64,000 bases of DNA, taken from assembly GCA_015686845.1 (NCBI GenBank), contig JADPRS010000007.1, positions 1 through 64,000 on the forward strand, read 5' to 3'. The translations under genes were made by a program, and so were the position numbers. Shown here in pieces: positions 5,759-29,208 of the stretch. How positions within the stretch are numbered: position 1 is the first letter of the stretch; each line of letters starts with the position of its first letter. This stretch comes from Lutibacter sp. B2. GTDB taxonomy: Bacteria; Bacillota; Clostridia; Peptostreptococcales; Thermotaleaceae. Below the pieces are notes generated by a model. It was not told the origin of the DNA and ran no database searches. It saw only the letters and a program-made list of their open reading frames with translations.

Positions 5759-7135
5759 TCATTTAGTAGTATTTATAGATATTTTTTTATCCTCATCACA
5801 TACAATCATCTTATCTACATTACCAACAACCGTTTTCAATTTTACGTTTGCCCCCCAAAGTGTTGCAAGATGTTTTAATGTCTCATACGCATAATTTACT
5901 TCTAATTCTCTGCCATCATATTCATGAGATAATAAAATAGTTTGATTTTGGGGCGATACTTCTAAAACTTCAATAACCGGAAGTGACCCCATCCCAATAT
6001 TATTTGCAATGGTATTTCTTATTTCTTTCCAGCCTTGATGATCTGCTACTTCTTCTACTACATAATCTTTTCTCATATTTTTATACGTAAAAAGATTCAT
6101 CTCATTGCACAATTCTTCCGTAAGATATTTTCTAATAAAAGATTCATCTCTTTCTAATTTCCGAACTTCAAAGATCTTATCTATTCCATATCTTTTTTCA
6201 ATATCTTCAAAGATCTTAAATCCCATATAATATGGATTCAGTCCTCCTAAAAATGGTCTTATCACTTGATTATGTCGGCTTAAAAATTCTATATGCATAT
6301 CTTGCGGTAATTCTAATTTATTTAAAATCTTATAGTGCCAATAACTTGCCCAGCCCTCATTCATTACCTTTGTTTCAATCTGGGGAATAAAATATTTAGT
6401 TTCTTCTATTACAATTCTCACTATATCCTTTTCCCATTCTTCTAATTTTCCATAGGTTGCTACAAACTCCATTATATCGTCCGTAGGCTCAAGTGGTATT
6501 TTATTTAAATCAGGAAATAGTCTATCCTTTTTCTCATCTAAACAACTTGTAGGTTTTATCTCAGCATAATATTTTTCAAGGATTCTTTTCTTTTGCTGCT
6601 CATGTGATAGTTTCTTATTTCCAATCACTCTTGATGTCTGAAAACTTAATGCATGTGCTGCATCTAATATTCTCTCTACCCTATCATATCCAATACTAGG
6701 ATCTTGAATATATGCTCTAATCCTATCTGCATGGTTTTTAAACATTTCAACTGTATAATCTGCATTTGTTCCTTCTGCAAATAATCTATTATTCTTAAAA
6801 AAATCATTGTGCCCATATACATGAGCCATAGTAAGAATTTGCAATAGAAAAGTATTATCTCTCATAAGATAACCAATACACGGATTAGAGTTAATAACCA
6901 TTTCATAAGGTAAACCTTCCAAATTATACTTATATAACATTTTTTTCTTTTCATAAGCCTTACCATAACTCCAATGTGGATAGTGAGAAGGCATTCCAAT
7001 GTAAGATTCATAACAAATCATATCTTCATAACAACAAAGTTCAAAGTCCTGGGGATAACAATCAAGCCCCTCCTCTTTTACAATCTCCTCTATTTTATCA
7101 TTCCATTTTTTTAAATCCTTCAAGGTATATTCCAT
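5759..7135 (-). CDS. spoVR: SpoVR family protein
   Basis: The 458-residue protein matches the SpoVR family (stage V sporulation protein R), involved in spore cortex formation in Bacillus and widely co-transcribed with prkA and yhbH. Family marks are YPQDFELCCYEDMICYESYIGMPSHYPHWSYGK split over the N-terminus, MAHVYGHNDFFKNN, MNEGWASYWHYKI and GLNPYYMGFKIFEDIE. The His/Glu pattern (HxxxHxDF, EGWASYWH) suggests a metal site, but its reaction is unknown. It is the last gene of prkA-yhbH-spoVR, starting 12 bases after yhbH with a weak GGAA site. Confidence 0.92.
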   Translation of the reverse strand: MEYTLKDLKKWNDKIEEIVKEEGLDCYPQDFELCCYEDMICYESYIGMPSHYPHWSYGKAYEKKKMLYKYNLEGLPYEMVINSNPCIGYLMRDNTFLLQILTMAHVYGHNDFFKNNRLFAEGTNADYTVEMFKNHADRIRAYIQDPSIGYDRVERILDAAHALSFQTSRVIGNKKLSHEQQKKRILEKYYAEIKPTSCLDEKKDRLFPDLNKIPLEPTDDIMEFVATYGKLEEWEKDIVRIVIEETKYFIPQIETKVMNEGWASYWHYKILNKLELPQDMHIEFLSRHNQVIRPFLGGLNPYYMGFKIFEDIEKRYGIDKIFEVRKLERDESFIRKYLTEELCNEMNLFTYKNMRKDYVVEEVADHQGWKEIRNTIANNIGMGSLPVIEVLEVSPQNQTILLSHEYDGRELEVNYAYETLKHLATLWGANVKLKTVVGNVDKMIVCDEDKKISINTTK

Positions 7136-7147
7136 AATGCAATTTTG

Positions 7148-8335
7148 TCATTCCTTACCCTCATCTTCTTTATCTAATAATTCTTTAAGTGCAGGAACAA
7201 CATCCTCCTTTCTGGATATAGATACTACTGAGAAATTTTTATATTTAACTTTTAAGTCAAATTCTTTTCTAATTGTGCTTTTCCTTAGATAAGAAGAATA
7301 CCTATGTTTTATTTCTCCATATCCAAAAAGATTGCATGTTTCACATAATTTTTTTGCAAGTTCTACCGTTTTTTGATTGTCCTCTGACCAGTTGTCTCCA
7401 TCACTGCAATGAAATGCATAAACATTCCACACTGCTGGATTATAGCTTTTTTCAATAATATCTAAAGCTTTTTGATAACCACTACTAATATAAGTTCCCC
7501 CAGATTCCCCTTTATGAAAAAATTCCATCTCATTCACTTCTTTCGCTACTGTAGAATGAGCTACAAATACGACTTCAACATGAACATACTTTAATCTTAC
7601 AAACTGATACAACAAGAAATAAAAACTTCTAGCAAGGTATTTTTTGGTCATATCCATAGATCCAGAAGTATCCATTATACAAATAACGACCGCATTGCTT
7701 TCTCGTCTTACATCTTCTCTTACACGAAAATACCTTAAATCATCTTCTTTAAAAGGAAATCTTTCTTTCTCTGTTCTGTAATCTTCCCCTTTTTCTACTT
7801 CGCCTCTTTCATGTGCTTTTTCTCTTTTGATCTTCTCTATTACAGATTTCTTTTTTGCAAGCCTTGGTCTAATTCCTTTTCTCTGATAGCCCAATCTTTT
7901 AAAGTTTTTTTCCGTTTCTATCTCATTAAATTTTTTCCTCTCCATAAATGGTAAATTTAAGTCTTCAAATAAATAACTTATTAACTCTTCAATGGTAATC
8001 TCTGTCTCGTAAATATCTTCTCCCTCTTCATTTCCTGCTCCATCCGGTCCTTTCCCTTTCTCTATTTCTTCACTACCTATTTTATCTCCACGCTTTTCAC
8101 TTCCATCTCCTGAACCCGTTCCCGTTTTATTTTTTCCATATATAAACTTATATTCTTTAATTCCCTTTATGGGTATTTTGATTTTTTTATCTTTACTCTG
8201 TCCGATAATACTCTCTTCAGCAATAAGATCACCAATATTTTTTTTTATGGAATCCTCAACCAGTTCTTTATGCCTTCTTCGATCTTCTGCTGCTCTATCT
8301 CTTCCTTTACTATCAAATTCTCTAAATATTGCCAC
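7148..8335 (-). CDS. yhbH: YhbH/DUF444 sporulation protein with VWA-like domain
   Basis: The product is a DUF444 (YeaH/YhbH) protein. Its N-terminus ([21 protein letters not shown]) is typical, followed by a charged, glycine-rich linker. The C-terminal half holds a von Willebrand A-like fold with an intact MIDAS motif ([11 protein letters not shown]). The open frame begins at 8383, but GTG at 8333-8335 has GGAGG seven bases upstream and gives the family N-terminus, so it is chosen (395 residues). It lies between prkA and spoVR. In Bacillus this gene is needed for normal sporulation; it probably works with the PrkA kinase. Confidence 0.92.
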
Positions 8336-16561: not shown

Positions 16562-16695
16562 AATTGAACCCTCCATTATTGTATTATCTTTAATTACTCT
16601 TATTATAAATGTTATTTCGTTTAAAATCGGTAACATAAGAAACAAATTTCATTTTTTTAAAAAAAATAACAAAATAGGTGGATAAGCAAAATATT

Positions 16696-17357
16696 TTACA
16701 CTATCAAAATTATTAGCTGTGCCTAATTTACAGTCGTGACAATAATTTCATAAGTAATGGCCTATGTATATCAATAGCTTCAACAGGACATAACTCCTGA
16801 CAACAGAAACACCTTATACATTCGTCTAAATTTACGATAGGCTTGTTCTCAACCATTTCTATTACCTGTGGCGGACAACTATTTATACAATCTCTACATC
16901 CTACACATTTTTCATGAATAAATACTGGTTTGGGTTGTAAAAAACCATTTAAAATATCCCTTAGAAATTTAGGGATTTTTCCATCTAATAAATCTAAGCT
17001 TCTTATTTCAGGGATAACAAAATCATTCAATATAAACTTTTCTATCTTATCTCCTTTTAGATCTATATCATCAAAATTCCCCTTACATAATCCTCTTTCT
17101 ACACATCTTTGAACAGTTGGTACTTTCGTAGGTTCTAATCCAATAATAGAAGTTGCTACTACATCTAAATGATATGGACTTGTAGAAGCAATAACCACCC
17201 CTACTTCTCTTGGATCTCCTGCACTAGGACCTGCTCCTTCCATACCAACGATACCATCCATAAAAGATAAAACAGGTTTAGAAGCTACACATATATCTAC
17301 TAATGCATTTGAGAAGTCTTTATTATTTGGCATTCTCACATGATATTCTGTTTTTTT
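16696..17357 (-). repeat. Left copy of ~660-bp direct repeat bounding the island
   Basis: This segment repeats 27990-28656 in the same orientation at an offset of about 11.3 kb. Hand alignment of 16728-17350 gives about 34 mismatches in 623 bases and no indel. Bases 16900-17174 are identical for 275 bp, with the differences in the two flanks. Homology fades just after 17357 and just before 16696. It covers the 3' half of a DUF362/ferredoxin gene. Confidence 0.92.
16728..17357 (-). pseudogene. 5'-truncated copy of DUF362/ferredoxin protein
   Basis: It encodes the C-terminal ~200 residues of the intact protein at 28027, including the end of DUF362 and the full double [4Fe-4S] region (CVGCRDCINSCP and CIRCFCCQELCP). 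The matching frame enters from unrelated sequence near 17357 and hits a stop at 17379-17381. The only start is an internal GTG at 17339 without a ribosome site. Substitutions relative to the intact copy are few (Ile/Val and a VEN/IDY block), so truncation is recent or the copy is maintained by gene conversion. It is probably not expressed, but a ferredoxin fragment cannot be excluded. Confidence 0.85.
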
Positions 17358-17585
17358 TAAAAGAGTGAATTTGACATATTAAGATTTTTGATTTTTTCAA
17401 AGGAAATCAAACGTATTTTTGGTGTAATTATTTTCTTAAGTTAACAATATGTTGTATGTAACATAATCTTGTGATATAGATAATTTAGTTCTTCAAAACT
17501 TCATCTCTATATGTTTTTCTTTATTTAGATTTTCTACCTATAAACCTACAATACAAAATAATTGATGTCTTATGCGGTATTATAC

Positions 17586-20500
17586 TTATTTGCCTAAAAT
17601 TTCATTCTTTTGTACAGTTCCAACAGATAAAAATTCAATAAATTTAGAATTATAATAATCACTAGATATCTTATTCTTCAATAGGCTAAATAAAGTTTCA
17701 TCATGAGTAGACATAACAATTTGCCACTCACCTTTACTTATAATACTTCTCAACAAATCTACAAAAGCTAGCGCATTTATGTCATCAAAATGACCTATCG
17801 GATCATCTATAAAAATAGTTTTTATTTTAGAATCAATCGTAGATAATGCCCCTCCTAAAAAACTACTTAATGCCACCGTATTTAGTTGTGCAGAGCTATA
17901 AAATAGTTCTGGCATAACTTCTTGTGTATGTGACAAATTTGTTCCTTTAATATATAATTCTGGCTCATCTTTATCGTTAAAATTTACTTCGTATTTTAAT
18001 TTTTGGAATGTTTTGTGTGGCTCTATTTTTCTATATATAGCATTCATTATTTTATTACTAAATACTTTTTCAAAATTTTTTCCTATTTCGCTCTTAATCC
18101 CGTTAAACAATGTATTGATTTTTTTTCTTCCATAGGTATATTTTTTAAATTGCTCTTCGAGTATTTTTTTATTCTTAATTATCTTTGCATATTTATCATT
18201 ATAATCTGTTATAGATACTTGACTGGCAATGTAATTTAATATATCAATTTTAATTTTCACACGATTGGATACATCTAACATTTTTTGTTGTTTTTTGCAT
18301 ATTGTATTAATATTTATTTCTAAACTTCTAAATATCTGTCTACAATAATTTTCATACTTTTCGATTACTTCACATTTATCTTCTTGTAAATATAAACTAC
18401 TTAACTTGCTAATATACTTTTCCTTTTTTTTAATTTTTATATTACTAAGTTTATTTATGTTATTATCAATAACTGTAATTATATTATTTATATTTATTAT
18501 CTTTTCTCTTAAACTATTATGCTTGTCAACTATATCATTCCAGATTTTTAACTCATTAAATTTTTCAAATATATCTATCAATTGTTTATTGTTGTCATTA
18601 TCAATAAATTCTTCATACTTTTTAACTGATTCTTCAAATATTTTTTCTAATTTTATAATTTCCTCATTTACATATTTTTCTGATTTTAAAATATTGTTAA
18701 TTTTTTCATTGTAATTAATCATTTTTTTTTCATGTTTCATACAAATTTCTGCTATCCACTTTTGAGTATTTTCCATATTTATATCATTATTATAGTTCAA
18801 ATCTTTAAACCATAACGTAATATTATTTATAATTTCTTTTATTTTTAATATGTTTTCGTTAATTTTATAATTTTCTTTTTTCATGTTGTTAAAATTTTCA
18901 GTGTTATCCTCAATTTCTATGAGTTTTTTCTTTATCATATCTTCACATTCATTATTCCATTTTATAATTGCTTTTTCCTTTTCTTTATTCCATTGATTTA
19001 ATTGTTTTTTTAAGTCAATATAATTTCTATATAAGTAATCTATATTTTTTTGTTGACTAACTCGATTTATTCTAGCTAATAACCTTTCTGTTTTATGATA
19101 TTCTTCATTGCATACTGGACACTTTGATAATTTTTCAGTTTCAATATGTTTCTTTACTTCTACCAAAATTTTTTCTAAATTGTCAAATGTTTCTTGAGCT
19201 TCTTTATACATTTTTTCTTGATTATTTAAATCTATTTCTATTTTTTTTATACAATTATCAATATCTTCAAATTCATTCATCCATTTATCTCTCATATTAA
19301 TCAAATTTTCATTAGACCCAATCATTATCTTCAATTTATTTATCAAGCTTTTATTATAACCATTATCAGGAAATTTAGCTTCAATTATTTGTTTTATTTC
19401 CGTCTGTATCAATTTATTTGAATAGGCTGTTCTTGAAATATTCTCTTGAAGTTTGAATTTTCTTTTGTTCTGTTCTTCTTTACCCTGTAATAGATTCAAA
19501 ACTTTCTTTGAGTTGCCTATAAGAGAGTCTCTATTACTTTCTATTTTAAATAATTCTTGTTTAACACTTTGAAGTAATTTTTCTATATTCTCTCGATTCT
19601 TATTTTCTCTAATAAGTTGTTCTTTTTTTAATTGTATTTGATTATTTACTTTCTTCATTTTATCTATACACTCTTGAAATTGCAGATATTCCTCAAACCA
19701 TTTTTTACCTGCATAATACAATTTTAGAATATTTTCCATTTCTCTTTGTACAACTTCTTTATGTCTAAATTCCAGATCCTTCTTAATAGAATATCTCTCT
19801 TTTTCTTCACACAAAGCAACAATCCTTTGCCATCTCTTCTTTAATCTTTTAATCATAAGTAATTCTTGTTTGAATTCATTATAATAATTATTATTATCTA
19901 CTAAAAATTCCAGTTTAGGTAATATGCTTACCATTTTATCTTTAACTGATGTCAGTTTTAGTTTTTGCTCACTAATTATTTCAACTTTAGGTATTACCGT
20001 TGGTTTATTTTCGGTTTTTCTTATTAATTCAATGGTATTTTCTTTATAAGGTAGTGTACAATTATATTGGTTGATTTTTTCATTCATACACTCAATTATT
20101 TCATTATTTATTGACAAATCATTCAGTTCATTATTTAAAGATTCTATTTTTGATTTTATGGTTTCTACTTTTTTTTCACATTGTTTATTTAATTCATAAA
20201 TTAAATTAAACAACTTCCGTTGACTTCCATCTAAATCCCAAAACTCACCCCACTCTTTATATTTGTCCCTCGGTTTAGTAGCATATACAAAACTATCAAT
20301 TTTATTGTGTGGTAGTATTTGCTTATTACTCATTATTTCTTTGTACTTGTCATCATTTAATTTGCCTATTTTATAGTCATTTTTAGCATTTTTTCGTGGC
20401 TTAATTTTACGCTTAATACTCTCTTCATTATCCAATGTAACACTAACTTCTGCATAATCCTCTTTACTGTATATATTTCGCAAAACACGACCTTCATAAT

Positions 20501-20711
20501 TTTCTATACCATTTTTGACATCATTTTTAAATCTATCTATTTCCCCTGTAAAAAGCCATTCAACTCCATCAAAAAATGAACTTTTTCCCATTCCATTCTG
20601 ACCATAAATACATATAAAATCAGCTACTCTCCCTTCCTTCATAAAATTAAAGGGTTCTTTACCCTTAAATACTCTAAAATTATTAAAACAAACACTTTTT
20701 ATTTTATTCAA
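17586..20711 (-). CDS. SMC/Rad50-like ABC ATPase of an ABC-3C-type system
   Basis: The 1041-residue protein has Walker A at 37-46 (YGQNGMGKSS), a long Lys/Asn/Glu-rich coiled coil, a zinc-hook-like CPVC near residue 530, and a C-terminal head. The head has a degenerate signature region (SSAQLNTVALSSFLG), Walker B TIFIDDPIGHFDD and H-loop MSTHDE. This is a RecF/SMC/Rad50-type ATPase. In ABC-3C conflict systems such an ATPase works with a middle component and an effector whose tail is conserved; both neighbours upstream fit. It is the last gene of the four-gene operon. It has no DNA-loader partners of Wadjet or nuclease partner of Mre11. Confidence 0.82.
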   Translation of the reverse strand: MNKIKSVCFNNFRVFKGKEPFNFMKEGRVADFICIYGQNGMGKSSFFDGVEWLFTGEIDRFKNDVKNGIENYEGRVLRNIYSKEDYAEVSVTLDNEESIKRKIKPRKNAKNDYKIGKLNDDKYKEIMSNKQILPHNKIDSFVYATKPRDKYKEWGEFWDLDGSQRKLFNLIYELNKQCEKKVETIKSKIESLNNELNDLSINNEIIECMNEKINQYNCTLPYKENTIELIRKTENKPTVIPKVEIISEQKLKLTSVKDKMVSILPKLEFLVDNNNYYNEFKQELLMIKRLKKRWQRIVALCEEKERYSIKKDLEFRHKEVVQREMENILKLYYAGKKWFEEYLQFQECIDKMKKVNNQIQLKKEQLIRENKNRENIEKLLQSVKQELFKIESNRDSLIGNSKKVLNLLQGKEEQNKRKFKLQENISRTAYSNKLIQTEIKQIIEAKFPDNGYNKSLINKLKIMIGSNENLINMRDKWMNEFEDIDNCIKKIEIDLNNQEKMYKEAQETFDNLEKILVEVKKHIETEKLSKCPVCNEEYHKTERLLARINRVSQQKNIDYLYRNYIDLKKQLNQWNKEKEKAIIKWNNECEDMIKKKLIEIEDNTENFNNMKKENYKINENILKIKEIINNITLWFKDLNYNNDINMENTQKWIAEICMKHEKKMINYNEKINNILKSEKYVNEEIIKLEKIFEESVKKYEEFIDNDNNKQLIDIFEKFNELKIWNDIVDKHNSLREKIININNIITVIDNNINKLSNIKIKKKEKYISKLSSLYLQEDKCEVIEKYENYCRQIFRSLEININTICKKQQKMLDVSNRVKIKIDILNYIASQVSITDYNDKYAKIIKNKKILEEQFKKYTYGRKKINTLFNGIKSEIGKNFEKVFSNKIMNAIYRKIEPHKTFQKLKYEVNFNDKDEPELYIKGTNLSHTQEVMPELFYSSAQLNTVALSSFLGGALSTIDSKIKTIFIDDPIGHFDDINALAFVDLLRSIISKGEWQIVMSTHDETLFSLLKNKISSDYYNSKFIEFLSVGTVQKNEILGK

Positions 20712-20749
20712 AATTTCACCTTCTTCACTTAATCTACAAATTTAATCCA

Positions 20750-21262
20750 CTATTTGAGAATATTCATTACATCCTCTAACTCTACTGTATTATCTTGTGC
20801 TCCTTTTACGAAATCATAGATTTCTTCATTATAATTTTTTAACCAATCCTCTAACTTTAAATTTTCTTCAGAAATTTCTATTCTAAATTCAAATATTATT
20901 TCATTAACCATTTTTTTTAATTCCTCTTCTTCCTCAGGCATTTCCCTTTGCACAATTATCTTTCTAGATGAATATTTATCTTGTTCTATTTTATACATTA
21001 CCTCATGGTCTATCTCTTTTGCAAAAAATAATATGTATATATTATATAATTCTATAATTTTACTTAACTTTGCTTGAATATAAAATGACACATTTTTCAT
21101 TATTTCTTGCCAATTTTTCCTTAAATCTTCTTGGTTTTTGAATTCACAGCAAACGATATTTGATTTATAATTATTTAACTCTTTTTCAAAATGAAAAACT
21201 TTCAAATATTCACATGTAACATCTTCTTTAATTAATTCTATTGTGTCCTTAATAGCTTCCAT
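20750..21262 (-). CDS. Probable middle component of ABC-3C-type system
   Basis: The 170-residue acidic, mostly helical protein has no signal peptide or membrane segment. The core reads YIQAKLSKIIELYNIYILFF then YKIEQDKYSSRKIIVQ, a pattern I associate with the small middle component of ABC-three-component systems (helix, IYI strand, then K-IE-D-SSRK). The position, between the effector gene and the ATPase gene with gaps of 15 and 38 bases, also fits. In those systems it is thought to link the ATPase to the effector. The family match is from memory and should be checked by profile search. Confidence 0.62.
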   Translation of the reverse strand: MEAIKDTIELIKEDVTCEYLKVFHFEKELNNYKSNIVCCEFKNQEDLRKNWQEIMKNVSFYIQAKLSKIIELYNIYILFFAKEIDHEVMYKIEQDKYSSRKIIVQREMPEEEEELKKMVNEIIFEFRIEISEENLKLEDWLKNYNEEIYDFVKGAQDNTVELEDVMNILK

Positions 21263-21277
21263 AAAGACCTCCCAATG

Positions 21278-22642
21278 TTATATCACTTTTAAGATTGATT
21301 CTTTTACCGATTCTAAGTTGTCATTTGATTCAATATATTTTTTTATCTGATTTACATGTATAATCGAAAGATCATTAGATTGTGAAGGACCACTTTTAAT
21401 ATTAAATCCATCCATTTTCCTAATATCCTTCTTTATATCAGGTACTATATTTTTAAATTCTTCTCTACTACATTCCAATTGTCTTCCTTTTGTATTAATA
21501 TCTGAATACCAAATTATCAAGCTTTTATCTTTTACAATGTTTTTCTTCAAATAATCGATTTTTAAAGATAAAATAAAGTCTTTCATAGTTACTCTTACAG
21601 CATTTATACCTTCAACATTTATGCCTCCACTACATATGAATTTAACCGGGTAATTTTGTCCTTCTTTTTCTATTTCTGGTGTCTTAAAGCATACATTATC
21701 ATTTAACAATCTAAGTATGCATAAACAAAAGAGAAGATGTACATTAAATGGATTACATCGATGTGGTGCTTCTCTATTTTTGCAGTTTGCTGATATACCA
21801 CAGAACCCATGTCTTATACTTTCAAGAACATCTTCTTCTGATATATCATCCATAATGTCACCAAATTCATCATTTTCTATATCCACTGCTAAATATTTAA
21901 TATATTCACTTAAATTCACTTGTATGTCTAATATATATTGTGGAATATCCCATCCTTCATTTGTACATATGTCAATAATAAGTTCTGATCCCATCCCTAC
22001 CACTGTATTAAATGGGCTGTCATCACCAACTCCATAAGAATGAATACCTATTAATGTTATCTTTTGTTCATCTTTTAAAAATACTCCCATTCCTGACAAA
22101 CCAACTAGTTCTTCATTTCTCTCTGCTAAATTTACATTTTCACTATTAGAAATATTGTATTGAAACTGTCTCATTCTCTTCTCAGGTTGAGAATATCTAG
22201 CACACACATCCTTACCTGAGAATCTGAAGTTTTTTGAATTATGCATCATTTTAGGAAAACCTCTAGCTATAATGTTAGGCTTTCCTTCTATCTGGTCAAC
22301 TTTCTTCATTAAAAAATTCTGATACTTAGTATTTATTTTCTTTATCCTTATAATAGCAACATCATAAATGTATGGTCTAACATCATCATCGTATTGACAA
22401 TGAATTGATATGCTATCACTTTGTTCTGTTTTCTCTTCTCCTTCTTTATCAAAATATCTTATTATTAATTTCGAGTCCTTATTTTTATAAATAACGTGTG
22501 CTGCTGTAAATACATAATTATATTTCGAAGTAGCATCATCTGGTCCCCACAACACACCACTTCCTAAAATTTTATTTTTCGAACCTTCTAATTCTACCTC
22601 TATTCTTACAGCTATATCTCCAATGATTTTATCTATTGTCAT
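21278..22642 (-). CDS. Trypsin-like protease with ABC-3C-like C-terminal domain
   Basis: The N-terminal ~230 residues form a trypsin-like serine protease with His in VFTAAHVIY, Asp in IYDVAIIRI and Ser in GLSGMGVFL, so the triad is intact. There is no signal peptide, so it acts inside the cell. The C-terminal ~200 residues include a Cys/His cluster (CGISANCKNREAPHRC) and NPFNVHLLFCLCILRLL, resembling the conserved tail of ABC-3C effector components. ATG 22642 with AAGGTG is preferred over TTG 22648. It is second in the operon. Likely role: a protease effector released or directed by the ATPase complex; this is inference. Confidence 0.75.
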   Translation of the reverse strand: MTIDKIIGDIAVRIEVELEGSKNKILGSGVLWGPDDATSKYNYVFTAAHVIYKNKDSKLIIRYFDKEGEEKTEQSDSISIHCQYDDDVRPYIYDVAIIRIKKINTKYQNFLMKKVDQIEGKPNIIARGFPKMMHNSKNFRFSGKDVCARYSQPEKRMRQFQYNISNSENVNLAERNEELVGLSGMGVFLKDEQKITLIGIHSYGVGDDSPFNTVVGMGSELIIDICTNEGWDIPQYILDIQVNLSEYIKYLAVDIENDEFGDIMDDISEEDVLESIRHGFCGISANCKNREAPHRCNPFNVHLLFCLCILRLLNDNVCFKTPEIEKEGQNYPVKFICSGGINVEGINAVRVTMKDFILSLKIDYLKKNIVKDKSLIIWYSDINTKGRQLECSREEFKNIVPDIKKDIRKMDGFNIKSGPSQSNDLSIIHVNQIKKYIESNDNLESVKESILKVI

Positions 22643-22671
22643 ATGCAAATCACCTTCTTTTTATAACTATC

Positions 22672-23679
22672 TTACTTCGTAGCTTCTTTGATTTTAAATT
22701 TACTAGTATCTATGACTATCTTATCCTTAATTTCTTTGATTTTTAATTTACCAGTATCTATATATTTCTCCACATCATTTTTAGTAAAATATCCAGTTTG
22801 AGACCACCAATTATAATTGCAGTTAATTATAGGATTATCAACATTTTCTACTATTCTAGCAATAGTTCTTTTACTAATTGCTCCTTTTTTTGATATTATG
22901 AATTCACTAGCCTTCATACATTGTAATAATTCTTTATTAGTATTATATTCACTTCCATGATGAGCCACTTTTATAACATGTATTTCTTTGTTTTTGAAAT
23001 ACTTATTCTTACCATATATAACATCTTCTGCATGCACATCTCCTAAAAAAGCTATATTTACACCATCATATGAAAAAACAAATGAAATAGATGCTCTATT
23101 TGTAATACTTTTATCTTTTTTATATTCATCATCTTTGATAACAATATCAATATCTTTTTCTATATGCAGTTCTTTAGGTGAGTGTGGCGTACATTTATCA
23201 ATTTCTTTATCAATCTCCTTAGAAACCCTTTGTATAGATTCTAATGTAGGAGTTATGACTTTAATTTTGGCATCATTAATACTATCTTCATATCCCATAT
23301 GAACTGGAGTTGTAACTTTCAACCCTTTTCCCTTCATATAATCAGTTAATTTCATTGCACTTTCAGGAGAGTGGGGTTGGTTTTCTAAATAAATTTTACT
23401 TCCTTCTCCATTAAACCACACTTTTTTTATGTGATCGCAATTTTTGTTTAATATAAATTTACTGAATCCTTTAATATGATCATTATCAATATGCGTTAAT
23501 ACTAGTAAATCTATTAATTCCCCAGAATTAACTATCTTGTCCATTAATTTTTTAAATCCCTTTGCAAATACTGCTGGTCCTGAATCAATTATAATATTTG
23601 AAATATTATCTTCAGTTCCATATCTAAGCCATATGCAATCGCCATTATATGCTTTTTCTACCTTAACTTCTAAAATCAT
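22672..23679 (-). CDS. ComEC/Rec2-like MBL-fold hydrolase of the island operon
   Basis: The 335-residue metallo-beta-lactamase-fold protein has the metal motif LTHIDNDHIKG (HxxxDH), FLGDVHAED and VAHHGSEYNT, as in the stand-alone ComEC-type MBL proteins often found in bacterial conflict loci. It begins a four-gene operon, 29 bases upstream of the protease gene; a TATAAT lies at 23715-23720 on the minus strand about 35 bases before the ATG. Its substrate could be nucleic acid, a nucleotide or a lipid. The C-terminus carries two similar short repeats (LKIKEIKDKIVIDTSKF/FKIKEATK). Confidence 0.8.
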   Translation of the reverse strand: MILEVKVEKAYNGDCIWLRYGTEDNISNIIIDSGPAVFAKGFKKLMDKIVNSGELIDLLVLTHIDNDHIKGFSKFILNKNCDHIKKVWFNGEGSKIYLENQPHSPESAMKLTDYMKGKGLKVTTPVHMGYEDSINDAKIKVITPTLESIQRVSKEIDKEIDKCTPHSPKELHIEKDIDIVIKDDEYKKDKSITNRASISFVFSYDGVNIAFLGDVHAEDVIYGKNKYFKNKEIHVIKVAHHGSEYNTNKELLQCMKASEFIISKKGAISKRTIARIVENVDNPIINCNYNWWSQTGYFTKNDVEKYIDTGKLKIKEIKDKIVIDTSKFKIKEATK

Positions 23680-23960: not shown

Positions 23961-25652
23961 TTACATTTCATCTTGATTTAACACTATACTCTGCCAATAC
24001 CAAGGAATCATAGGCATTCTATAATGCTTACTAGCTATTATAGGCAATAGCTTATAGCCATGTTTTACTGAAGATAATTCATTTATATCTATTGTATTCT
24101 TTTGAACACGTCTAACCGTTTCAAGCATATCATCAATTGACTCTTTGAGAATCATAGGAGCGTCCATAGCACCTGTTTTATATGCAGCATTGATAGTATA
24201 CATATATTCATCTGTTGATCTGTCAGGATACCATATCTGCAATGAGCAGTCCTTAAAAAACTTCACAACTGATTCTCTAATCAAGTGATACGTTTCATAT
24301 AATCCTAATGCAATACACCACTGTGCTAATGTAGGGATTAATGTAGATAATTCAAATAGCTTTTCTTTTTCCAATCTATTTGAATTATTCAATGCCACTA
24401 AATCATCAAATGAATCTGATTGTATTGGAAAATACTTACCTAAATTAACATATGCAAATTTCATATGCTCAACTATTTGTACTATCCACCAATTAATTAG
24501 TTCTTTCTCACCATAAGCTTGCAATAAATATATAGCCTGTGAAATCTCAGTTATATGTCCATCATAACAAGGTGCACATATAGCCAAATGATTGTTTATA
24601 AAATTCTTCAAGCTGTCCACAATTTTTTTTACTCTATCAAATTCTTGTGTATCGCCTTTTTTACATCTATAATGAAGTCCTAATCCAAATAAACTAATAT
24701 TGCCTAAAACTTCAAATACATTTAAACAATTAAGTATATAATATCTTTCATTTGCCGATAAACTTTCCTCTTGATAGCAAAATTGATCTATTTTATCAAA
24801 ATACTCATTATATATATTCAAAAAACTTTCATATATCTTATCAAATATTAATCGGACATTATTATTTTCTAATAAATTATTAGTTCTCATAAACTCCCAT
24901 ATATTAAGCACAGTTCTTTCTGCAGCAAGCATTGCAGGTTTGATATTATTTTCACTTCGTGCCCAAAACCATATTATATTTAAACATAAATGAACTGTCA
25001 TCAATTTCTTTTTTATCTTTTTCTTTGTTGCTTGTCTATTAATATTTTCATATTTTACATCTACTAAAAATTCTTTTATAATATTATAGAAATCATTCAA
25101 ATCATGGTCAGAATCCCCTAATAAAGCTAATGTCTTTCTCATTTTCGATTTAAATTCTTTAGGTATTATTTGTTCATTAAACATGTATTTTTCAATAAGT
25201 ATTGCTAGCTTATCTCCACCCCAAAATTCATATTCCTGTATATCCTCAATTCTATTTCTTTTAACATACCCTCTCCAATTTTGTTGTATTTCTTGCCTTA
25301 ATGCGCCTCCTGTGCACAGTACTATTTTTTTAGGTAAATCTTTATATTCTAGTGGAATATGACTTTCTATATAGACATCTAATATCTCATCTAATGATGG
25401 TCTTACTGATTGATTATTTCCATCCCAATCTGCTCGTCCGATATCCCCTTGCTTTATAGTAAATAAGTATAATAACACTATTCCAAATTCATCTTTTCCA
25501 ACTGCAGCAACATCTACTCCATATTGTCTCACTCCAATTTGAGGATAACTAATAGGTTCAATTCCCATAGCTAATAGTAAATCGGGCAACACACGATCAA
25601 GTTCTTTTGACTCCTTCAAAAGAGAAAGATATTCTCTAATAATTAACTTCAT
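23961..25652 (-). CDS. Unrecognised protein with restriction-endonuclease-like N-terminus
   Basis: The 563-residue cytosolic protein is not a family I can name. Residues ~30-75 (PQIGVRQYGVDVAAVG, a hydrophobic strand LLYLFTIKQGD) look like a PD-(D/E)xK nuclease core: Asp after GV, then a beta strand ending in xxK-Q-G, with Thr or Gln in place of the usual Glu. A second block (KKIVLCTGG, NWRGY, EFWGGDKLAILIEKY) resembles the end of Mrr-like domains. Residues ~190-563 are all-helical and tryptophan/tyrosine-rich. The ATG overlaps the stop of the upstream gene as TAATG, so the two are coupled. A defence role is inferred from the nuclease-like core and island context. Confidence 0.6.
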   Translation of the reverse strand: MKLIIREYLSLLKESKELDRVLPDLLLAMGIEPISYPQIGVRQYGVDVAAVGKDEFGIVLLYLFTIKQGDIGRADWDGNNQSVRPSLDEILDVYIESHIPLEYKDLPKKIVLCTGGALRQEIQQNWRGYVKRNRIEDIQEYEFWGGDKLAILIEKYMFNEQIIPKEFKSKMRKTLALLGDSDHDLNDFYNIIKEFLVDVKYENINRQATKKKIKKKLMTVHLCLNIIWFWARSENNIKPAMLAAERTVLNIWEFMRTNNLLENNNVRLIFDKIYESFLNIYNEYFDKIDQFCYQEESLSANERYYILNCLNVFEVLGNISLFGLGLHYRCKKGDTQEFDRVKKIVDSLKNFINNHLAICAPCYDGHITEISQAIYLLQAYGEKELINWWIVQIVEHMKFAYVNLGKYFPIQSDSFDDLVALNNSNRLEKEKLFELSTLIPTLAQWCIALGLYETYHLIRESVVKFFKDCSLQIWYPDRSTDEYMYTINAAYKTGAMDAPMILKESIDDMLETVRRVQKNTIDINELSSVKHGYKLLPIIASKHYRMPMIPWYWQSIVLNQDEM

Positions 25653-27376
25653 TATGTATCCCTCCTTTTAGCCATGCGAAATTGAACTCGTTGAAGTTCA
25701 TCACTAACTCTATAGCTTATTTGTGATTTTGGCATTTCCACACTCTGTGAAATTTTAGCCAACTCGCTAATCTCTCCAAAATCATTGTTATGATACTGAA
25801 ACCATCCTTTTCCATATTTCAAAGTTACTTTACTAACAAGGTTAATAAGAGTAGATTCTTCTCCTGTTTGTTCCATAGCTTTGTTGAATTCTCTATTTTT
25901 TTCTAGCATTATGTTATTTCTATATCTTGATGGTTGTTTTACTTCTTTTAAATTTTGAATGTCATTATCTTTTTCTAAAGATTTTATTATATTGGTTAAT
26001 ATTGTATTTAGAGCACTTAGTTTTTGTGTATTATCTACCTTTGTTTTTAAAAACTCACACGTACTATATGGATAATTTTTTCCTATAAATTCATAAAAAA
26101 GTTCCCCAACTTCCTCTGCGATCCTATCATCTTTAAAATGTATTTTCAAAATTGAATACATCAGTGAACATAACGTATTTACATCAAAAACATAACCTAA
26201 CACTTTGGTAGATAAATATACAACTTCATCATATTCCATGTTTTTTATTATTTCACTATGAAATTCTATTTCTGATACCCCACATAACTTTGCATATCCA
26301 ATTAATTCAAATGTAATTTTATGAAATTGATAGTTGTTTTCACTAAAATATATCGTAATTAGTTCACTAAAAAGTTCCGAATCCATGATAATTTGCCTTA
26401 TAGTCGAATTAAACAAGTTTTTTATATCCATTTTCTGCGTGAAATAATCACTATCTAGTGCCCATCTATGTAAAAATTGTTTAGCCAACTCTTTATTACT
26501 GTTTTTAATCAATTTAGCCAAAATAAAGTCAATATTATCTATTATACCTGTATATTTACAGTTTACATTAGACATTGTCAGCAAAAGTTCTTCAAACCAA
26601 TCATTTTCATATATCTTATGTAATTCATGGAATAAGAAGTTTGACACCTGATAGCTAACACTATCCTCTTTTATCTTGCACAGCCTCAGCACCAATCTTA
26701 TACTTCTATTGTCCAGATCGTAAAATTTACAAAGAACATTTGTAATACAGTAATATAACTCTTTGGATTCTGATCTAAGCAAATCTTCAAAAATGTTAAT
26801 TACATCTTGTGCTTTTTTCTGATCCGCCTTATTACATATTAAATCTCCCAAAGCAAATATTGAAGCTTGTACTACATGAATTTGTTTACTATAAACTATT
26901 TCAATTAGCTCATCATAAACACCCTCAAAATCTATAATTGATAATCCTTGAAATATCGTAGCCATACACCCTACACAAAACGGCTTATTAATTAGAACCA
27001 TTTCATCTAACAATTCTCTTGCAATCTTCGGTTGTTTTTCTACAAGTTGTAAAATAGGTTTATATTGAATACTTTGTGCAAGATCGCCTTCCATAGACAC
27101 ATACATAGTCTCTAAATATCTTAAAAAGCTTTCAATGTTGCATTGAAAAACAGGTATAGAATCTTCGAGTACATGGTGTACATCAAAGCAACTGTATCCT
27201 TGTTCTATTGCACTTACAGCAATTTCATAAATATCAATATTATGTTCTCTATTTAGATTAACTAAAATATTTTTAACAGATATTTTTTCAGTAGGCTCTT
27301 TTCTCCTAAGTTCATCTAACTTTGAAAAGAACTTAAGAGAATTGTTTTTTTCATTTAATAGATCCTTTTCAAACAA
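25652..27376 (-). CDS. Unrecognised helical-repeat (HEAT-like) protein
   Basis: The 574-residue protein is built of successive amphipathic helices with HEAT/ARM-like spacing (for example VGCMATIFQGLS, VVQASIFALGDLI, YYCITNVLCKFY, VYLSTKVLGYVF). The basic C-terminal tail contains conserved-looking GKGWFQYHNNDFGEI and ends in RVQFRMAKRRDT. No catalytic motif, signal peptide or membrane segment was seen. It is the first gene of a two-gene unit, overlapping the nuclease-like gene by one base. A scaffold or sensor role for its partner is inference. The start has GGAGGG shortly upstream. Confidence 0.6.
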   Translation of the reverse strand: MFEKDLLNEKNNSLKFFSKLDELRRKEPTEKISVKNILVNLNREHNIDIYEIAVSAIEQGYSCFDVHHVLEDSIPVFQCNIESFLRYLETMYVSMEGDLAQSIQYKPILQLVEKQPKIARELLDEMVLINKPFCVGCMATIFQGLSIIDFEGVYDELIEIVYSKQIHVVQASIFALGDLICNKADQKKAQDVINIFEDLLRSESKELYYCITNVLCKFYDLDNRSIRLVLRLCKIKEDSVSYQVSNFLFHELHKIYENDWFEELLLTMSNVNCKYTGIIDNIDFILAKLIKNSNKELAKQFLHRWALDSDYFTQKMDIKNLFNSTIRQIIMDSELFSELITIYFSENNYQFHKITFELIGYAKLCGVSEIEFHSEIIKNMEYDEVVYLSTKVLGYVFDVNTLCSLMYSILKIHFKDDRIAEEVGELFYEFIGKNYPYSTCEFLKTKVDNTQKLSALNTILTNIIKSLEKDNDIQNLKEVKQPSRYRNNIMLEKNREFNKAMEQTGEESTLINLVSKVTLKYGKGWFQYHNNDFGEISELAKISQSVEMPKSQISYRVSDELQRVQFRMAKRRDT

Positions 27377-27615: not shown

Positions 27616-27985
27616 TTATTCAATTATTTTCTGTTTTAAATTATTTACTATTCCCTTTAATTCAACTACTGGTATTGTCTTTTGCGTTCCATATTTTAAA
27701 ATCCATTCTCCATTTTCCTTTATCAAGGACAACATATTACCATCTCTTAATCTTTTCTTTTCATTAATATCTGAGCATAATCAAATGTTTCGTAAGGATT
27801 ATGTTTTACTAAATATTTCTGTAAATATATGATAGCTTGTGACTCATCATCTAATTTTTTTACAATTAACAATCCCTTTACAAACAAATTATCTATTTTA
27901 TCAAAACATTTAAATCTTAAAATTTATGAGGATGGTCAATGATTCTTATCATTTCATCTAAAAAAATCTTTTTTTCCTTAATAAA
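27616..27985 (-). pseudogene. Decayed small gene, two frameshifts, 5' end lost at repeat
   Basis: Three consecutive minus-strand pieces in different frames read as one protein. The first includes FFIKEKKIFLDEMIRIIDH. The second includes LDDESQAIIYLQKYLVKH and ends FDYAQILMKRKD. The third includes MLSLIKENGEWILKYGTQ and ends NNLKQKIIE before a stop at 27616. Together they give about 115 residues. The first piece runs open to the edge of the right direct repeat without a start codon. The family is not recognised. It suggests an older gene broken when the island formed. Apart from this gene and its terminator, 27377-28026 holds only AT-rich sequence. Confidence 0.55.
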
Positions 27986-27989
27986 AAAT

Positions 27990-28656
27990 CTTACATTATA
28001 AAAATTATTAACCGTCCCTACCTAATTTACAATCGGGACAATAATTTCATAAGAAGTGGCCTATGTATATCAATGGCTTCAACGGGGCATAGCTCCTGAC
28101 AACAGAAACACCTTATACATTCGTCTAAATTTACTATGGGTTTATAGTCTATCATCTCTATTACCTGTGGCGGACAACTATTTACACAATCTCTGCACCC
28201 TACACATTTTTCATGAATAAATACTGGTTTGGGTTGTAAAAAACCATTTAAAATATCCCTTAGAAATTTAGGGATTTTTCCATCTAATAAATCTAAGCTT
28301 CTTATTTCAGGGATAACAAAATCATTCAATATAAACTTTTCTATCTTATCTCCTTTTAGATCTATATCATCAAAATTCCCCTTACATAATCCTCTTTCTA
28401 CACATCTTTGAACAGTTGGTACTTTCGTAGGTTCTAATCCAATAATAGAAGTTGCTACTACATCTAAATGATAGGGACTTGTAGAAGCAATAACTACCCC
28501 TACCTCTCTTGGATCTCCTGCACTAGGACCTGCTCCTTCCATACCCACTATCCCATCCATAAAGGATAACACTGGTTTAGAAGCTACACATATATCTACT
28601 AATGCATTTGAGAAATCTTTATTGTTTGGCATTCGCACATGATATTCTGCTTTTTC
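27990..28656 (-). repeat. Right copy of ~660-bp direct repeat bounding the island
   Basis: This is the partner of 16696-17357, same orientation, about 94-95% identical by hand alignment, with a 275-bp identical core at 28199-28473. This copy is embedded in the intact DUF362/ferredoxin gene, so it is likely the original chromosomal end or the regenerated target. Confidence 0.92.
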
Positions 28657-29208
28657 TAATCCTGCAACCACGCCGAACATGTTTTTTACTGCTCCAGTAA
28701 ACATCATCATTCCATGGGTCTTTAATTTAGATACAGATATAACCTTGTCCACTTCTTTTAAAACTTCAATCGCTGTTATTCTTTTTAAGATTAAACCACC
28801 TTCATTTTTAATTTCTACAGAATTCGTGTTATAATTTAATTTAGCGCCTACATCATCTGCTATTTTCTCAATTCCACAAGCTTTATAAACACCCTTTAAT
28901 AAAGAGGTGTTAAAGGGTCCTCCTGGACTATCTGCAATGATTACTTCGGCTCCATATTCTATTAGAACTTGGGCTAATGCTTTTGCAAATATTGGGTGGG
29001 TTGTTGTGGCATCTTCTGGTTTTTTCTTCATTAAGAGGTTTAGCTTTAATAAAACCTTATCCCTTTTTTTTATAAATTTACCAATTCCGCCCAAATCTTC
29101 AAAAGACTTTTCTACTGATTCTTTAACCAAATTATAATCATATTTTCTACATTCAATTAATGATACTATTTCTTTTTTCAGTTTACTCACAACCTTCCTT
29201 AAAGACAT
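28027..29208 (-). CDS. DUF362 protein with C-terminal double [4Fe-4S] ferredoxin
   Basis: The 393-residue protein has a DUF362 domain (about 15-320; CRKYDYNLVKESV, KLNLLMKKKPEDATTTHP, SKLKTHGMMMFTGAVKNMFG) followed by two [4Fe-4S] motifs (CVGCRDCVNSCP and CIRCFCCQELCP). Such proteins are common in anaerobes and are thought to serve in electron transfer or iron-sulfur chemistry; the exact role is unknown. A GTG at 29190 has AAGGAAGG just upstream, whereas the ATG at 29208 lacks a ribosome site, so the true start may be 29190. It is divergent from plsY. Its 3' half is duplicated at the other end of the island. Confidence 0.88.
   Translation of the reverse strand: MSLRKVVSKLKKEIVSLIECRKYDYNLVKESVEKSFEDLGGIGKFIKKRDKVLLKLNLLMKKKPEDATTTHPIFAKALAQVLIEYGAEVIIADSPGGPFNTSLLKGVYKACGIEKIADDVGAKLNYNTNSVEIKNEGGLILKRITAIEVLKEVDKVISVSKLKTHGMMMFTGAVKNMFGVVAGLEKAEYHVRMPNNKDFSNALVDICVASKPVLSFMDGIVGMEGAGPSAGDPREVGVVIASTSPYHLDVVATSIIGLEPTKVPTVQRCVERGLCKGNFDDIDLKGDKIEKFILNDFVIPEIRSLDLLDGKIPKFLRDILNGFLQPKPVFIHEKCVGCRDCVNSCPPQVIEMIDYKPIVNLDECIRCFCCQELCPVEAIDIHRPLLMKLLSRL

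Follow-up and report, generated by a model that had tools for sequence, protein, structure and literature searches.

A gene pair of Lutibacter sp. B2 assigned to the Olokun anti-phage system, with a predicted Mrr/FokI-type fold and an atypical candidate active site in OloB

Introduction

Does the overlapping gene pair at positions 23,961 to 27,376 of a Lutibacter sp. B2 contig represent a new defence module, or does it belong to a system that already has a name? The window, i.e., the whole stretch of DNA that we analysed, comprises 64,000 nucleotides (contig JADPRS010000007.1, positions 1 to 64,000, assembly GCA_015686845.1). A preliminary description of this DNA, made by reading the sequence, had proposed a HEAT-like protein coupled to a restriction-endonuclease-like protein, matching no named defence system and possibly forming a new nuclease-based module. 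Here, we focus on the identity of the pair, on its distribution and surroundings, and on the predicted folds of its two proteins.

Results and Discussion

The gene pair matches the Olokun system

Both open reading frames (ORFs) were found where they had been described, on the minus strand:

25652..27376 (-): oloA, 574 amino acids, TTG start codon with AGGAGG nearby
23961..25652 (-): oloB, 563 amino acids, ATG start codon

The gene oloA lies upstream of oloB and the two ORFs overlap by one base in the sequence TAATG. Judged by profile matches, the pair belongs to Olokun, an anti-phage system that has been described before and that consists of OloA and OloB. The PADLOC model of OloA (PDLC03925) matched the protein encoded at 25652-27376 with 229 bits (residues 33-572 versus 43-595/596), and that of OloB (PDLC03926) matched the protein encoded at 23961-25652 with 513 bits (residues 1-556 versus 1-553/556). 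Scans with Pfam, NCBIfam and PHROGs yielded only weak or irrelevant matches and no model that covers OloA or OloB, which may be why the pair had looked unrecognised. This missing coverage is also what would speak for a new system with no relation to those already named, but the PADLOC matches to both proteins are almost full length and OloA adjoins OloB in relatives, which makes such a system extremely improbable; it was rejected on the PADLOC matches. Of the module proposed beforehand, the nuclease-type fold and the defence island setting thus stand, whereas the novelty and the lack of a named match do not.

Olokun is a two-gene defence system that was reportedly described by Millman et al. 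in 2022. It is listed among defence systems (PMC10121019) and filed under nucleic-acid degradation in a survey table (PMC10855318), and according to a 2025 paper it is still not thoroughly characterised (PMC12592470). Our literature search found no mechanistic paper on Olokun.

The order of oloA followed by oloB is shared by the window and its relatives. An ORF ended near or overlapped the OloB start in all 84 intact OloB loci, drawn from many phyla, and the overlap was four bases long in 68 of these. This count reflects ORF position; when the upstream genes were searched with the PADLOC profile, 60 out of 60 tested relatives proved to encode OloA (61 members with the window protein). The coupling of oloA and oloB is well beyond chance. 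As OloA is found upstream of OloB across loci, the coupled pair is the unit of inheritance. A promoter and terminator scan of the locus performed no better on the real sequence than on shuffles.

Distribution of OloB relatives

The genome that contains the window carries one copy of OloB, as detected with the OloB model, and only two of 297 related genomes carry OloB, the window genome included; none of 14 control genomes matched. The sole other OloB among the 297 (loci L002/L003, contig 106 of genome G163, 6214-7796) was matched as two separate pieces and is apparently a broken or frameshifted copy.

Beyond these relatives, 34 homologues of OloB were present in plasmid records, from hosts that include Klebsiella, Rhizobium, Agrobacterium and Tolypothrix. 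When one genome per species was scanned with an alignment-based method, 205 OloB relatives were recovered, 80 of which were kept for analysis, and the same type of scan detected eight OloB loci in viral contigs. No match was obtained by a DNA-level plasmid search, by tblastn of phage records or by a single-sequence scan of viral contigs.

Some plasmid loci depart from the usual organisation. Two Klebsiella loci (L012/L014, 3096-3998) encode an OloA of 300 amino acids, about half the usual length, next to an otherwise normal OloB, and possibly represent a minimal subtype. On a Burkholderia ubonensis plasmid (L015, 3576-6211), an IS3 transposase truncates OloB, and the gene upstream of oloB is down to 141 amino acids; this locus is a decaying system.

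The island and its Lamassu neighbour

The Olokun pair shares an island with a second defence system, and the island is bounded by a gene and a partial copy of it:

17586-23679 (-): Lamassu/ABC-3C system, downstream of oloB, assigned with PADLOC and Pfam
28027-29208: complete DUF362/4Fe-4S gene, one island flank
16728-17339: copy of the 3' half of the DUF362/4Fe-4S gene, other island flank

The 3' half that the two flanks share forms a direct repeat (16688-17360 and 27983-28659), which encloses both the Olokun and the Lamassu systems. Its copies share 93% identity over 677 bp, and a middle part of about 250 bp is identical. Such an arrangement suggests that the island integrated through homologous recombination, or that its target was duplicated. 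Between the repeats we saw no integrase-like gene, and in an empty-site comparison the relatives examined did not preserve the gene order around DUF362. Upstream of oloA, at 27620-27960 on the minus strand, there are short ORFs (e.g., VKKLDDESQAIIYLQKYL... and MLSLIKENGEWILKYGTQK...) that look like decayed gene fragments.

The preliminary description had placed the pair next to a conflict operon, which PADLOC identifies as Lamassu (ABC-3C). By its profile matches it is a complete system with an MBL-nuclease/trypsin module: both the MBL-fold hydrolase (212 bits) and the trypsin-like protein (104 bits) matched LmuA models, and the further matches were LmuC (90 bits; Pfam MComp1, PF20289) and the SMC-like ATPase LmuB (438 bits). 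The combination of MBL and trypsin-like proteins has been described as a gated nuclease-protease module (PMC12799240). Lying on the same strand and only 281 bp from the Lamassu operon, the Olokun genes could be taken for extra components of it. However, we found no Lamassu proteins in the other Olokun loci that were retrieved, and in plasmid loci OloAB stands alone or beside unrelated genes, so Olokun and Lamassu are neighbours and not one system. Membership of the Lamassu system is very improbable and was rejected.

OloA is predicted to be a HEAT-repeat solenoid

The predicted structure of OloA is all-helical (pLDDT 92.5), and a sequence search of the PDB with its family profile retrieved HEAT/ARM proteins (alphaRep, AP-2 beta and importins). 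This agrees with the HEAT-like character that had been noted for the first protein, and the model indicates that OloA is a HEAT-repeat solenoid of stacked helical pairs. Its best structural match was the HEAT scaffold of the PP2A A-subunit, with a Z-score of 12.8 over 334 residues, a value close to what shape alone yields for helical repeats. Conservation in OloA is highest in columns towards its C-terminal tail (S508, G522 and P549).

OloB combines a predicted nuclease-type domain with a helical solenoid

The structure of OloB was predicted with AlphaFold2 on an alignment of 65 sequences (pLDDT 92.5). The model divides into two parts:

25167..25652 (-): OloB residues 1-162, Mrr/FokI-type PD-(D/E)xK nuclease fold, assigned by VIA-align and a profile-profile match
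23961..25166 (-): OloB residues 163-563, alpha-helical solenoid, assigned by predicted secondary structure

The second part corresponds to the large helical C-terminus that had been read from the sequence, and showed weak matches of the symplekin/VPS35/STAG1 type (Z 8-9). The N-terminal domain starts with a helix (14-28), three strands (32-35, 48-53 and 59-67), a helix (83-97) and a strand (108-114), followed by a helix (120-133), a strand (139-144) and a last helix. In the model, this order of elements is that of PD-(D/E)xK enzymes, with the alpha-beta-beta-beta-alpha-beta core present.

When whole OloB was searched with Foldseek, helical repeats dominated and no match reached E<=0.001; a second look with VIA-align revealed nucleases. 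The top match of residues 1-162 was the FokI cleavage domain (Z 10.6, 3.6 A over 144 residues), next came AF1548 (Z 9.2), and MspJI (Z 8.9) followed after one helical-repeat protein. Residues 2-173 of Avs4, NucS/EndoMS and the Lamassu effector LmuA scored Z 7-8, values that can be background. Among viral proteins, the best structural match came from a phage and bears the name restriction endonuclease (Foldseek probability 1.00, E 0.011). When the PDB was searched with a sequence profile of OloB, nothing matched. As Foldseek lacked matches at E<=0.001 and Z-scores of 7-8 may be background, we place the weight of the fold assignment on the top nuclease matches, on their mutual agreement and on a profile-profile test.

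In that test, 32 OloB N-domains were compared with 11 Mrr_cat domains collected from relatives. The global alignment ran end to end, covering OloB columns 11-154, and scored 32.2, against a maximum of 15.1 among 60 column-shuffled controls (0/60 as good); in local mode the score was 32.9 against a shuffle maximum of 17.1. The alignment paired OloB D19 with the Glu of Mrr_cat helix 1, D47 with the Asp of beta2 and K67 with the Lys of beta3. The structural check of the N-terminus that the preliminary description had called for thus returned a nuclease-type fold.

The candidate active site of OloB is atypical

The residues that may form an active site are encoded as follows:

25596..25613 (-): codons of OloB E14-D19 (ESKELD), acids of helix alpha1; E14, E17 and D19 invariant in 85/85
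25512..25514 (-): codon of OloB D47 (GVD motif), acid of beta2, invariant in 85/85 and aligned with the beta2 Asp of Mrr
25452..25454 (-): codon of OloB K67 (TIKQG motif), end of beta3, invariant in 85/85

In the model, D47 starts strand beta2 and K67 ends strand beta3 of a core of the PD-(D/E)xK type. This places the GVD Asp and the TIKQG strand, which had been proposed to belong to a variant of this core, at positions that fit that proposal, although the variant is more unusual than a plain PD-(D/E)xK site. Seven residues (E14, E17, D19, D47, K67, R73 and W76) were invariant among 85 diverse OloB sequences. As the patterns used to recruit these sequences included ELD and GVD, the corresponding columns are partly biased. 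The first six of the seven were likewise invariant among 14 sequences, namely the query and 13 plasmid homologues from full-length tblastn.

Residue 65, two positions before the Lys, was Ser in 46, Val in 25 and Thr in 14 of the 85 sequences, and never acidic or Gln. The equivalent residue is Gln in Mrr, and Glu or Asp in most such enzymes. As position 65 is Ser/Thr/Val in all 85 sequences, the OloB core appears to be an atypical Mrr-like nuclease fold. Such a site could be weak, could use other acids or could bind DNA without cutting it. Cfr10I offers a comparison, as it carries a Ser (S188) in the corresponding position and relies instead on a Glu (E204) of a neighbouring helix; our literature search for precedents of acid migration of the Cfr10I S188/E204 kind returned nothing relevant. 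By analogy, E14/E17/D19, E89 or D92 could play the role of the Cfr10I helix Glu in OloB.

The absence of the second catalytic acid from all 85 relatives would also fit a catalytically dead PD-(D/E)xK fold that binds DNA or senses DNA ends, with the solenoids blocking phage replication or recruiting something else. However, E14, E17, D19, D47, K67 and R73 are strictly invariant, which is beyond the needs of a dead binding domain, and PD-(D/E)xK enzymes with Ser at this place, such as Cfr10I, can use a helix acid. We consider a dead fold unlikely. We give about even odds to a reading in which OloB is a DNase that is active through a rearranged site, where Ser/Thr/Val replaces the second acid and E14/E17/D19 or E89/D92 substitute for it, and in which the HEAT-repeat sensor OloA licenses the enzyme. 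If true, this would provide a mechanism for Olokun and add a variant active site to the Mrr class.

Proposed mechanism

With a probability of roughly 0.8, the pair is an Olokun system in which OloA is a HEAT-repeat scaffold, probably acting as sensor or regulator, and OloB joins an Mrr/FokI-type domain to an alpha-solenoid, probably acting as DNase effector. The overlap between start and stop codons suggests coupled translation and an OloA-OloB complex. We infer that OloA, or the solenoid of OloB, would recognise a phage component, and that this recognition would activate or cluster the OloB nuclease domains. DNA, of either the phage or the host, would then be cut by means of the helix 1 acids (E14/E17/D19), D47 and K67. 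The reading as nuclease-based defence is supported at the level of the predicted fold. Together, the hypothesis on D47, K67 and E14/E17/D19 and the assignment of OloA as a HEAT scaffold make the mechanism of Olokun directly testable. The locus also adds an Olokun member from a low-GC genome, beside a Lamassu system.

Comparison with known systems

The window pair resembles Olokun in that the PADLOC models match both genes almost from end to end and in that gene order and start-stop overlap are the same as in relatives. It differs in its host, which has a low-GC genome and belongs to an order where Olokun seldom occurs (2/297 relatives, window genome included), and in sequence: the nearest OloB found, from a gammaproteobacterial MAG, is 49-50% identical, and among the relatives fetched, the one closest to the window OloA shares only 31% identity with it. 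The Lamassu/ABC-3C system with its MBL-trypsin module shares island and strand with the Olokun pair, but has other genes and another architecture (MBL nuclease, trypsin-like protein, LmuC and the SMC-like ATPase LmuB). The FokI cleavage domain is the best structural match of OloB residues 1-162, although the two are only 8% identical; FokI has a DxK motif, and the position of its Asp is Ser/Thr/Val in OloB. Among Mrr-like nucleases, a group that includes the N-domain of Avs4, the OloB profile aligns end to end with Mrr_cat (PF04471), with D19, D47 and K67 matching the acid of helix 1, the Asp of beta2 and the Lys of beta3. However, OloB does not reach the Pfam Mrr_cat model directly, and the Gln/Glu of the (Q/E)xK motif is Ser/Thr/Val in OloB.
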